Of a stretch of 64,000 nucleotides of DNA, positions 48,528-58,204 are shown piece after piece; position 1 is the stretch's first letter, and every line of letters starts with the position of its first letter. The stretch is from positions 124,001 to 188,000 of the forward strand of contig MKVL01000004.1 in assembly GCA_001899205.1 (NCBI GenBank), read 5' to 3'. Origin of the DNA: Mesorhizobium sp. 65-26 (GTDB taxonomy: Bacteria > Pseudomonadota > Alphaproteobacteria > Rhizobiales > Rhizobiaceae). The notes below the pieces were generated by a model, which was not told the DNA's origin, made no database searches, and saw only the letters and a list, made by a program, of their open reading frames with translations. The position numbers were made by a program, and so were the translations under genes.

Positions 48528-48543
48528 GTTTTAAGCTTAAAAA
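48528..48543. promoter_or_regulatory. Shared palindrome, site 1 (upstream of aminotransferase)
   Basis: GTTTTAAGCTTAAAAA, with the 14-bp perfect palindrome TTTTAAGCTTAAAA at its heart (48529-48542). It aligns with sites 2 (49504-49519) and 3 (58189-58204); the common form is ATTTCAAGCTTGAAAT. MarR-type operators often look like this. This site is the most diverged of the three. Confidence 0.5.
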
Positions 48544-48666
48544 ATTTGCGCCGGCTCGTGATTTCGCGCCACACTTTTGCGCCAGAGCCGTTCAAGCGAA
48601 AAAACCGCCGGATGGCTCCTTCTCTTCAGGAAAGGCGCTACGCGCCCTTCCGGGCAAAACCGCTGC

Positions 48667-49443
48667 TCACTTCTGCTGGAATTGCTCCAGTCGGGCATGA
48701 GCCGTGGCGCGGCCACTGCTCGCGCCGGCGCCGAGGAACATGGTGTCGCTGGCGAGGATGAAGAAGCTGGCGCCGATCTCGGCCCATTGCCCTGCATCCT
48801 CGGCCCTGGCGCAGAAGATGCCGACGGTCCTGCCCCGCGCTACCGCCGCCGCGATGATGGCGCGGATTGCCTCGGACAGGGCCGCAGCGCCTTCGGGGCC
48901 GATCGCGCCTATCGACACGGACAGGTCGCCGGGACCGACGAAGACCACGTCGACGCCCTCGACGGCGACGATCTCGGCGATGTTGGCGAGCCCCTCGGCC
49001 GTTTCGACCTGCACGGCCACGACCGTCCTGGCATTGGCGACGGCGAGATAATCGGGGATGCGGTAGCCGTAGCCGGCGGCGCGGCCTGGGCCGACGCCGC
49101 GCTCGCCCTTCGGAGGATAGGCGGCAGCCCGGACAGCGGCACGCGCCTGCGCGGCGGTCGAGACACGCGGCACCAATATGCCTTGCGCGCCGGCGTCGAG
49201 CGCTGCGGCGATCGCTTCCGGCTGGTGGCCCGGCACACGCACCATGGCCGGCACGCGATGAACATCGGCGGCCCGCACCATGACCTCGATGGTCTCCCGC
49301 GACATCTGGGCATGCTCCCAGTCGATGCACAGGAAATCGAGTCCGGAAAGGGCCATCACCTCGACCGCGACGGGGTGAGGTATGGCGCAGAAGGAGCCGA
49401 CGAGATGTTTCCTGCCGATGCAGTCCTGGCGGAAACCGTACAT
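48667..49443 (-). CDS. HpcH/HpaI aldolase family protein
   Basis: 258 residues. Class II pyruvate-type aldolase of the HpaI family: GSFCAIPHPVAVEVMALSG, the FLCIDWEHAQMSRE metal/catalytic region, GILVPRVSTAAQARAAV and VEGVDVVFVGPGDLSVS. Such enzymes cleave 4-hydroxy-2-keto acids, often the last step of aromatic degradation. AGGAGG lies six bases before the ATG at 49443. Divergent from the luciferase-like monooxygenase; their 214-base gap contains palindrome site 2. The true substrate is not determined. Confidence 0.9.
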   Translation of the reverse strand: MYGFRQDCIGRKHLVGSFCAIPHPVAVEVMALSGLDFLCIDWEHAQMSRETIEVMVRAADVHRVPAMVRVPGHQPEAIAAALDAGAQGILVPRVSTAAQARAAVRAAAYPPKGERGVGPGRAAGYGYRIPDYLAVANARTVVAVQVETAEGLANIAEIVAVEGVDVVFVGPGDLSVSIGAIGPEGAAALSEAIRAIIAAAVARGRTVGIFCARAEDAGQWAEIGASFFILASDTMFLGAGASSGRATAHARLEQFQQK

Positions 49444-49503
49444 GGCCGTCCTCCTGTTGTGCCTGCCCGGATTCATAGCTGCAAACGCCGGCGAGGCGAA
49501 GCT

Positions 49504-49519
49504 ATTTCAGGCTTGAAAT
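49504..49519. promoter_or_regulatory. Shared palindrome, site 2 (between aldolase and flavin monooxygenase)
   Basis: ATTTCAGGCTTGAAAT, arms ATTTCA/TGAAAT. It sits 61 bases before the aldolase start and 139 bases before the monooxygenase start, so it could control both. One base from the palindromic consensus ATTTCAAGCTTGAAAT shared with the sites at 48528 and 58189. Confidence 0.55.
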
Positions 49520-55073: not shown

Positions 55074-55825
55074 GTCTCACCTCCGGAAATTGAGATTGCC
55101 TGTCCCGTGATCGATCCCGCCGCGTCGCCGCAAAGCCAGATCACCGCAGCCGCGACCTCCTGTGGCTGGATGAAGCGGCCTTGCGGATTGACAGACGCGA
55201 GGCTTGCCCGCGCCTCGTCCACCGAACGGCCGGTCTTGTCGACGATGCGCTGGACCGACTCCTCCAGCATCTCGGTCTCGACGAAGCCCGGGCAGACGGC
55301 GTTGACCGTGACGCCCGACTTAGCCGTCTCCACCGCGAGCGCCCGCATCAGGCCGACGACGCCGTGCTTGGCGGCCACGTAAGGGGCGACGTAGCCATAG
55401 CCCTTCAGCCCCGCCGTCGAGGCAACGAAGACAATGCGGCCGGTTTTTCGCGCGGCCATGCCGGCCAGCGCCGGCTTCACCGTCAGGAAGGAGCCGGTAA
55501 GGTTGACGTCGAGCGTGCGCTGCCAGTCGGCCATGGAGGTCCTGTGCGCGGGCGCGCTGCCGGACATGCCGGCATTGGCCACGACGATGTCGATCGGCCC
55601 GCGCGCGGCCTCGGCCTTCTCGTAGAGGGCGGCCATCTCGGCCTCGTCGGTGACGTCGGCCACCAGGCCGGAAATGTGCTTGTTCTCCTGGGTCACTTCG
55701 GCAAGGGCCGCCTCGCGCCGCCCGCAGATGGTGACGTCGACGCCTGCCTCGGCAAGCGCCAGCGCGATCGCCCGGCCGACACCCGAGCCGCCTCCGGTGA
55801 CGAGGGCGTGCTTGCCGACGATCAT
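55067..55825 (-). CDS. Short-chain dehydrogenase/reductase (3-hydroxyacyl-CoA dehydrogenase-like)
   Basis: 252 residues. Rossmann TGGGSGVG near 10-17, NAGMSGSAP, catalytic Ser in [12 protein letters not shown], YxxxK as YVAAKHGV and PGFVETEM. Cofactor NAD(P). I chose the ATG at 55825, which overlaps the preceding gene's stop (ATGA), over a longer open frame. Its place in the operon fits a beta-hydroxyacyl-CoA dehydrogenase of aminobenzoyl-CoA breakdown. Confidence 0.93.
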
Positions 55826-58116
55826 ACTTTCAGCCCCGCCGCCGCCTCGCGTTCGGCCAGCCGGTAGAGCTGGTCGCGGCCGGGCAGATAGGGATCCGGC
55901 CACTTGACACCGCGATCGCCGAGCGTGACGGCCGCGTGCAGCGTCCAGTAGGGATCGGAGAGATGCGGCCGCGCCAATGCCACCAGATCGGCGCGCCCGG
56001 CCATCAGGATCGAGTTGACGTGGTCGGGCTCGTAGATGTTTCCCACCGCCATCGTCGCCATGCCGACTTCGTTGCGGATGCGGTCCGAGAACGGCGTCTG
56101 GAACATGCGGCCGTAGACCGGCTTGGCGGCGATCGAGGTCTGGCCGGCCGAGACGTCGCATATGTCGACGCCGGCCTCATGCAGCAGCCTTGCGATCTCC
56201 ACGGCATCCGCAGGCGTGACGCCCTCGATGCCGACCCAGTCGTTGGCCGAGATGCGCATCGAGATCGGCTTATGCGACGGCCAGGCAGCGCGCACCGCGT
56301 GGAAAATCTCCAGCGGATAGCGCATGCGGTTTTCCAGCGAGCCGCCATATTCATCAGTGCGCTGGTTGGTGACCGGCGTGATGAAGGAGGACAGCAGATA
56401 GCCGTGCGCGGCGTGGATCTCCAGCATGTCGAAGCCGCAACGGTCCGCCATTTCGGCGGAGGCGACGAACTGGTCGCGCACCATGTCCATGTCGGCGCGG
56501 TCCATCGCCTTCGGCACCTGGTTGCGCGGCGACCAGGCGACGGCCGAGGCCGACATGACGGGCCAGTTGCCGCTCTCCAGCGGCACGTCTGTTCCCTGCC
56601 AGCCGACCCGGGTAGAGCCCTTGGCGCCGGAGTGCCCGATCTGGGCGCAGATCCTGGCTTCCGTCTCGCCATGCACGAAATCGACCAGCCGCTTCCAGGC
56701 AACTTCGTGCTCGGGAGCGTAGAAGCCGGGGCAGCCGGGGGTGATGCGGCCTTCCGGGCTGACGCAGGTCATCTCGATGTAGACCAGCCCGGCGCCACCC
56801 TTGGCGCGTTCGGCATAGTGAGTGAAGTGCCAATCGGTCGGGCAGCCGTCGACGGCCTTGTACTGCGCCATCGGCGAGACGACGACGCGGTTCTTGAGGG
56901 TCATGTCGCGCAGCCGGAACGGCGCGAACATCGGCGCCCGGTGCAGGCCTTCCGCGCCGGCGCCGGCGTTGCGCTGGAACCACTCCTCGGCGCCGCCCAG
57001 CCATTTGGCGTCGCGCAGGCGCAGATTCTCGTGGCTGATGCGTTGCGAGCGGGTGAGCAGGGAATAGTTGAACTGCACGGGGTCGAGGCCGAGATAGCGC
57101 TCCACTTCCTCGAACCATTCGAGCGAATTGCGGGCCGCCGACTGCAGCTTCAGCACCTCGGTGCGGCGCGCGTCCTCATATTTGCGGAACGCGGCCTCGA
57201 GGTTCGGCTCGGACTCGACATAGTCGGCGAGCGCCACCGCGCTTTCGAGCGCGAGCTTGGTGCCGGAGCCGATCGAGAAATGCGCCGACGCCGCGGCATC
57301 GCCCATCAGCGCGAGGTTCTCGTAGGACCAGCGTTCGCAAAGCACGCGCGGGAAATTGATCCAGGCCGAACCCCTGATGTGGTTGGCGTTGGTCATCAGC
57401 GCGTGGCCGCCGAGATGCTTGACGAAGATGCGCTCGCAGACCGCAATCGATTCCTGCTGCGACATGGCGCCGAAGCCGAACTTGTCCCAGGTCTCTTGGC
57501 TGCACTCGACGATGAAGGTCGCCGTCTCGCTGTCGAACTGGTAGGCGTGCGCCCACACCCAGCCATGCTCGGTCTTTTCGAAGATGAAGGTGAAGGCGTC
57601 GTCGAATTTCTGCGTCGTGCCGAGCCAGACGAACTTGCACTTTCGGGTGTCGATGTCGGGCTTGAAGATGTCGGCGAATGTGTTCCTCGCCCGCGAGTTC
57701 AGGCCGTCGGCGGCAACGACCAGGTCGTGGCTCTCCATATAGGGCCTGGGGTCGGCGATATCGGTCTCGAAGACGAGGTTGATGCCCAGTTCGCGTGCGC
57801 GCCGCTGCAACAGGATCAGCAGGCGCTTGCGGCCGATGCCGCAGAAACCGTGGCCGGAGGAGACGGTGCGGACGCCGTCATGGATGACGGCGATGTCGTC
57901 CCAATAGGCGAAATGCTTCTTGATCCAGACCGCGCTGACCGGATCGTTCCTGGACAGATTGTCGAGCGTCTCGGCTGACAGAACCACGCCCCAGCCGAAG
58001 GTGTCGTCGGGGCGATTGCGCTCGAACACCGTGACCTCGTGCGCGGCGTCGCGGAGTTTCATCGATATGGCAAAGTAGAGCCCGGCTGGTCCGCCGCCGA
58101 GAACCGCAACTTTCAT
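55822..58116 (-). CDS. Bifunctional 2-aminobenzoyl-CoA (or salicylyl-CoA) monooxygenase/reductase
   Basis: 764 residues in two halves. Residues about 1-390 are an FAD aromatic hydroxylase: [15 protein letters not shown] at the N terminus, [15 protein letters not shown] and [20 protein letters not shown]. Residues about 400-764 are an old-yellow-enzyme-type reductase: [40 protein letters not shown] and [10 protein letters not shown]. This fusion is the architecture of 2-aminobenzoyl-CoA monooxygenase/reductase from Azoarcus evansii and of proteins annotated as salicylyl-CoA 5-hydroxylase/oxidoreductase. It would hydroxylate and reduce the CoA-activated ring aerobically. ATG at 58116 has GAGGAG upstream. 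First gene of the operon; no CoA ligase is nearby. Which substrate applies is not certain. Confidence 0.9.
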
Positions 58117-58188
58117 GCCTGCGATCTCCTCTCGCTTCCGGGACCGCTCATGCGGCCCCGGGTGACAGTATTGCGCCCGAGGCAAATT

Positions 58189-58204
58189 ATTTCAAGCTTA
58201 AAAT
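58189..58204. promoter_or_regulatory. Shared palindrome, site 3 (upstream of aminobenzoyl-CoA operon)
   Basis: ATTTCAAGCTTAAAAT, one base from the palindromic consensus ATTTCAAGCTTGAAAT. It lies 73 bases before the monooxygenase start, in the gap after the VOC gene. Probable operator of the MarR protein encoded within the operon. Confidence 0.6.

Follow-up and report, generated by a model that had tools for sequence, protein, structure and literature searches.

A conserved palindrome as the probable operator of a MarR-controlled anthranilate regulon in Mesorhizobium

In a 64,000-nucleotide stretch of Mesorhizobium sp. 65-26 (GenBank assembly GCA_001899205.1, contig MKVL01000004.1, positions 124,001 to 188,000; hereafter the window, in whose numbering coordinates are given), three gene gaps carry copies of one palindrome, and the question is whether these serve a single regulator, and which one. 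An earlier note on this DNA had proposed that the MarR-family protein encoded at 54603..55073 on the reverse strand, within an operon for coenzyme A (CoA)-dependent aminobenzoate breakdown, links the three loci into one regulon. We consider it quite probable that the palindromes are operators of this one MarR repressor, that they define an anthranilate regulon, and that the repressor is released by an aromatic CoA ester.

The three sites are GTTTTAAGCTTAAAAA at 48528..48543, upstream of an aminotransferase-transporter operon, ATTTCAGGCTTGAAAT at 49504..49519, between the divergent genes of an HpaI aldolase and a luciferase-like monooxygenase, and ATTTCAAGCTTAAAAT at 58189..58204, upstream of the operon headed by the AbmG gene. 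Their sequences and coordinates are exactly as first described, and their intergenic placement was borne out by the list of open reading frames. A search of the window for the consensus ATTTCAAGCTTGAAAT with up to three mismatches returned two matches against 0.07 expected, and none of 100 shuffles gave two; the 48528 site, with four mismatches, is outside the reach of this search. When a matrix is derived from the three sites, their own scores are 27.6 to 31.3, high by construction, and the best other match in the window has 11.6. The 58189 and 48528 sites are each accompanied by a weaker second palindrome 14 base pairs (bp) off, namely the degenerate ATTTCACGGTTGAACG at 58203..58218 and a degenerate partner at 48514..48529.

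Across the 6.84-Mb genome, ATTTCAAGCTTGAAAT was found with up to three mismatches at 15 places (reversed-pattern control: 6), with both one-mismatch matches falling in the window. The pattern TTTYARGCYTRAAA, derived from the three window sites, matches at nine places with up to one mismatch (control: 4) and exactly at four, the sole independent exact match being position 192962 of contig C42. This fourth site heads an operon of an AMP-binding CoA ligase and a tryptophan 2,3-dioxygenase (TIGR03036, above cut-off); an alpha/beta hydrolase lies on its other side, and a kynureninase (TIGR01814, above cut-off), adjoined by a gene named GntR-like by eye, about 3 kb away. Together they would supply the 58189 operon with its expected substrate, by producing anthranilate and converting it to the CoA ester, and the site before ligase and dioxygenase therefore tests the regulon idea independently. 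The motif is thus not scattered at random, an outcome that the earlier note would have taken as a refutation, three of its four exact places lying in the window and the last before genes that would make and activate anthranilate. That the regulon is not obvious from gene order, as had been suggested, fits this distant locus best, the three window loci being neighbours across the genus.

The AbmG operon is encoded on the reverse strand. AbmG itself (55822..58116) is a fusion of a flavin adenine dinucleotide (FAD) monooxygenase and an old yellow enzyme of the PRK08255 family (1268 bits, cut-off 1078), a model which NCBI names salicylyl-CoA 5-hydroxylase; by context, it is the putative 2-aminobenzoyl-CoA monooxygenase/reductase. 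It is followed by what we take, from sequence and conserved order, to be a short-chain dehydrogenase/reductase (SDR; 55067..55825), annotated as such in Ruegeria pomeroyi, then by the MarR gene, an enoyl-CoA hydratase family gene (PRK08258; 53794..54606), and an acyl-CoA dehydrogenase gene (52646..53794); a RidA family gene (52153..52548) lies beyond, on the same strand. The MarR product matches two profiles of the winged-helix domain (PF12802, 46.4 bits, cut-off 27; PF01047, 43.6 bits, cut-off 24.6), and its predicted structure is a MarR fold. Of 86 loci, 77 yielded the gene, mostly between the SDR and hydratase genes, and 75 of the 77 share the recognition helix SNGN. Motif co-occurrence, operon position and this constant helix support the proposal that the protein links the loci. 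In six of the nine loci without MarR the sequence breaks off no more than 3 kb from the AbmG start; the three fully covered ones are L195 and L224, with best sites scoring 9 and 8 of 14 matches to the consensus, and L180, considered below. A Caballeronia locus (L134, Caballeronia insecticola plasmid p1) has the helix VTGGN and no site above 10/14, and is a natural case for probing the specificity code; in Rhizobium rhizoryzae the helix reads VTNGN and the site scores 11/14.

Regions from relatives were chosen from the 87 genus genomes with AbmG, some being the same genomes as in the named loci described below (e.g. L061/L152, L063/L155). A site precedes AbmG in 13/13 regions of close relatives, and again in six further regions with a 54%-identical AbmG (the sixth being G077:C7). 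All eight regions with the luciferase-like gene carry the 49504-type site, two of them with one mismatch, and an exact TTTTAAGCTTAAAA, the 48528-type site. The CoA ligase is preceded by a site of at least 11/14 in each of 30 loci fetched, out of 54 genomes with the ligase. The sites, whose absence from related genomes the earlier note had named as a refutation, thus recur in relatives keeping the genes.

AbmG is present in 87 and the operon MarR in 86 of 99 genus genomes, the difference being G012, where AbmG ends the contig. With the pattern YTTYARGCYTRAAR, which was widened once the genus sites were known, 276 motifs were counted in the 87 genomes with the operon (3.17 each; reversed-pattern control 1.37) and 7 in the 12 genomes without operon and MarR (0.58 each; control 2.17); the counts differ with a Mann-Whitney p of 1.4e-6, uncorrected for the kinship of the genomes, and the control shows an opposite difference between the two groups (p 0.008). 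Matches occurred in 88/99 genomes, and the positional breakdown covers the 75 forward matches listed, from 21 genomes: 20 stand upstream of AbmG and 14 upstream of the ligase, 22 fall 5-10 kb downstream of AbmG, and 19 are elsewhere. The last group includes four matches that form two pairs, each with a spacing of 884 bp, on other contigs (G034, G066). Among eight contexts of other motif places in relatives, six placed the motif inside an open frame of at least 140 codons, and no pathway gene was recognised in the eight (at most five longest open frames each); in L235, a motif lies about 0.6 kb before a binding-protein-like gene.

Beyond these regions, sites were sought within 250 bp before AbmG in named loci, the best 80 of 573. 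The best site reaches at least 11/14 in 59 of them, against 8 of 1600 shuffles that keep base composition only, and in an order-level search 20 of 26 loci (two from the genus) reach 11/14. In loci outside Mesorhizobium with a site of at least 11/14, a partner palindrome of at least 9/14 stands exactly 14 bp off in 24/43, any other pitch from 5 to 30 giving at most 7/43. Within Mesorhizobium the 14-bp partner is weaker (7/15, the same count as for a 7-bp self-overlap); the transporter/aminotransferase site keeps CTTTCGCCTTGAAA or a near variant at +14 in 6/6 loci shown.

Gene order in these relatives bears on how the regulon came about. In Chelativorans, Aquibium, Aquamicrobium and Nitratireductor (L166, L168, L169, L170), the genes for AbmG, SDR, MarR, hydratase, dehydrogenase, ligase, kynureninase and dioxygenase form one operon in this order, with the hydrolase divergent from it and the site in between. 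A single operon of this kind, in which kynU and kynA are annotated, is also present in Thalassospira, and in Ruegeria pomeroyi dioxygenase and hydrolase genes diverge from AbmG across a tandem site; several relatives have RidA within the operon, together with dioxygenase and kynureninase. Because of these one-operon arrangements, we read the Mesorhizobium regulon, from gene order, as an operon of this kind that was probably broken apart while each piece retained the operator.

At AbmG the operator overlaps the predicted promoter of CoA-ester catabolic genes: the right half of the palindrome overlaps a -35 box TTGAAA, followed after 17 bp by AATACT, and in the genus the arrangement TTGAAA, 17 bp, GATACT or GATATT is kept in all 18 loci examined of 30. 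At the aminotransferase, a TTGAAA that may serve as -35 box lies in the second palindrome. We infer that a MarR dimer would bind the 16-bp palindrome WTTTYAAGCTTRAAAW, often with a second dimer on the copy 14 bp off, and that the bound repressor would cover the -35 box at the AbmG promoter, because the CouR boxes of Rhodococcus jostii overlap predicted -35 boxes (PMC4737184). Tryptophan would be converted via kynurenine and anthranilate to the CoA ester, and an aromatic CoA ester, most likely 2-aminobenzoyl-CoA, would release the repressor; such an inducer is proposed because CouR, FerC and BadR respond to CoA esters (PMC10458429, PMC5487221). Release would turn on the monooxygenase/beta-oxidation operon and the C42 operon of CoA ligase and tryptophan dioxygenase, together with the transporter/aminotransferase, HpaI and luciferase-like genes.

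Several observations weigh against this account. Locus L180, from an Afifellaceae metagenome-assembled genome, has a 13/14 site before AbmG and no MarR gene was found within 12 kb, and conversely the best site stays below 11/14 in 19 of the 77 loci with MarR, Thalassospira reaching only 10/14 though its MarR is present; six of the 26 order-level loci score 8 to 10. G017 (L162) has the operon and no exact motif, its site being one base off the pattern. No -10 element was found behind the site in the HpaI direction, and the one in the luciferase direction is weak. Among the eight relatives' regions that keep the luciferase-like gene, aminotransferase is present in six and HpaI in seven, and in six named Mesorhizobium loci with the site pair the former is whole in three and the latter present in four; since the 48528 site is kept in some relatives without the aminotransferase, the transporter behind this site is its more constant target. 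At the C42 locus, the hydrolase taken as KynB passes the lipase-type model HaHSL but no formamidase model, and with 373.1 bits the ligase is slightly short of the cut-off for benzoate-CoA ligase (375.25 bits).

That the same regulon is read by another regulator we regard as unlikely. A second MarR protein (MarR2, 50954-51421) lies between the sites, the GntR-like gene adjoins the kynureninase, and a third MarR gene belongs to an indole-type cluster that lies next to the operon in most of the Mesorhizobium loci seen; a palindrome of this style is often common to MarR proteins, and L180 carries a site without the operon MarR. The distribution of these genes speaks otherwise. MarR2 and its cupin neighbour have no match in 19 relatives' regions, including eight where the luciferase-like gene is retained together with its two sites, and MarR2 was rejected as the regulator on this ground; the GntR-like gene occurs in 4/86 loci, and the indole-type MarR was seen only in L154, L218 and L231 (other Mesorhizobium flanks end before the expected place), against 77/86 loci for the operon MarR. 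The pair of MarR2 and the divergent cupin gene (50954-51912) is, as an observation in its own right, likely an insertion of limited distribution.

Two further explanations concern the nature of the signal. The palindromes could be mere shared promoter sequence around TTGAAA -35 boxes and no operators, as the promoter arrangement in all 18 genus loci invites one to suppose, and in the named loci TTGAA is followed by a -10-like hexamer (at least 4/6 matches) in 29/80, against 6/80 on the reverse strand. A -35 box, however, accounts for one half of the palindrome only, yet recurrence extends to the other half and to the second palindrome 14 bp off, and the motif is rare in same-genus genomes without the operon, which makes this explanation highly improbable. 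The regulon might also be real and serve salicylyl-CoA or another aryl-CoA in place of 2-aminobenzoyl-CoA: AbmG passes the salicylyl-CoA 5-hydroxylase model, and a close ligase is missing from 33 of the 87 genus genomes with AbmG. With a tryptophan dioxygenase behind the same site, and with dioxygenase, kynureninase and RidA in the operon of several relatives, we hold this to be rather unlikely and retain the operon MarR with an anthranilate-derived ligand as the preferred explanation.

As to precedents, Azoarcus evansii reportedly degrades 2-aminobenzoate (anthranilate) aerobically via a CoA pathway with a monooxygenase/reductase fusion acting on 2-aminobenzoyl-CoA; the likeness lies in the fusion enzyme. 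Among the matches listed in literature searches, none concerned a regulator or operator of the Azoarcus evansii pathway, and none, judged by titles and the starts of abstracts and with subscription papers outside the scope, the regulator or operator described here; a direct search for the operator strings gave no related match, the sole one concerning, by its title, cancer cells. The closest solved sequence is 3boq, a MarR protein of Ruegeria (Silicibacter) pomeroyi (E 5e-24) with the similar helix VTNGNVSG; as orthologue of the R. pomeroyi operon MarR it was rejected, the operon MarR matching 3boq only at E 3.6e-21. CouR of Rhodococcus jostii is a MarR repressor released by p-coumaroyl-CoA; its palindrome, cATTGA--TCAATg, differs from the one found here, and the accessible text describes no second palindrome at 14 bp for it (PMC4737184). 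It is 17% identical to the MarR protein considered here in a structural alignment. Its residues Arg36 and Arg38 are lacking in the homologues of R. palustris and Sphingobium (PMC4737184). With BadR, FerC and HcaR, the system proposed here would share the control of an aromatic pathway by a MarR protein via CoA esters; these three serve other pathways, and in the accessible portions of the sources none is described as controlling tryptophan or anthranilate breakdown (PMC10458429, PMC5487221).

Behind the 48528 and 49504 sites lie the luciferase-like monooxygenase (49658..50746, forward strand) and, on the reverse strand, the HpaI/HpcH aldolase (48667..49443) and the class I/II aminotransferase (PRK06108; 47206..48402), the latter two absent from some relatives. 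The aminotransferase is followed on the same strand by an amino-acid-type ATP-binding cassette (ABC) binding protein (46336-47133) and what is presumably, by its sequence, an ABC permease (45411-46085). The luciferase-like gene and these transporter genes are found in all six named Mesorhizobium loci with the site pair. After them comes a cysteine desulfurase-like class V enzyme (44041-45474; TIGR01976, 591 bits, cut-off 352), and in L164 (Mesorhizobium sp. LNHC252B00) a 35-residue aminotransferase remnant lies near 18517-18618 behind an intact site. Since luciferase-like gene and transporter stay with the two sites despite the loss of aminotransferase and HpaI, we entertain the doubtful idea that they open a second, hitherto unrecognised feeder route into anthranilate, which in its fullest form, that of the window, would bypass kynureninase. 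A kynurenine-like amino acid would be transaminated, aldol cleavage would give 2-aminobenzaldehyde and pyruvate, and flavin-dependent oxidation of the aldehyde would give anthranilate; the scheme draws on the general chemistry of these enzyme families and on regulon membership. The frequent loss of aminotransferase and HpaI speaks against the bypass as a fixed pathway. Outside the genus, two loci (L247, L248) combine an HpaI-like gene with a luciferase-like gene of 57% identity, the two lying about 0.8-0.9 kb apart; the best palindrome nearby scores 11/14 in L248, and none reaches 11 in L247, so that this neighbourhood without the palindrome suggests a metabolic unit.

Past the window end, CTTTAGGCTTAAAG stands at position 189939 of contig C4 (65939 in window numbering), in the divergent promoter of the indole-type cluster (G000:C4:188.3-197 kb; L232, L251), which comprises genes for an indolepyruvate oxidoreductase alpha-like protein (273 bits, below the cut-off of 651), a cyclase (PF04199) and two FAD oxidoreductases, and the MarR gene mentioned above. 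In 13/13 relatives CTTTATGCTTAAAG occupies this promoter. With 9/14 to the consensus (hand count), and as it may belong to the cluster's own MarR, this fifth site is a candidate only. The cluster may feed anthranilate. An iad (auxin) locus is not claimed, as inspection by eye of the next 12 kb, over the first 130 residues of each frame of at least 200 codons, revealed no Rieske dioxygenase.

The proposed anthranilate regulon adds a new case to a type of gene control already known. For the aerobic CoA route by which many Alphaproteobacteria and some Halomonas-type bacteria degrade anthranilate and tryptophan, it provides a candidate regulator and DNA signal. The putative operator can serve to locate genes of the pathway, and in the window it points to a flavin monooxygenase, a transporter, an aminotransferase and an aldolase as putative members of the regulon. 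It also illustrates how scattered genes that form one operon in relatives can keep a common control.

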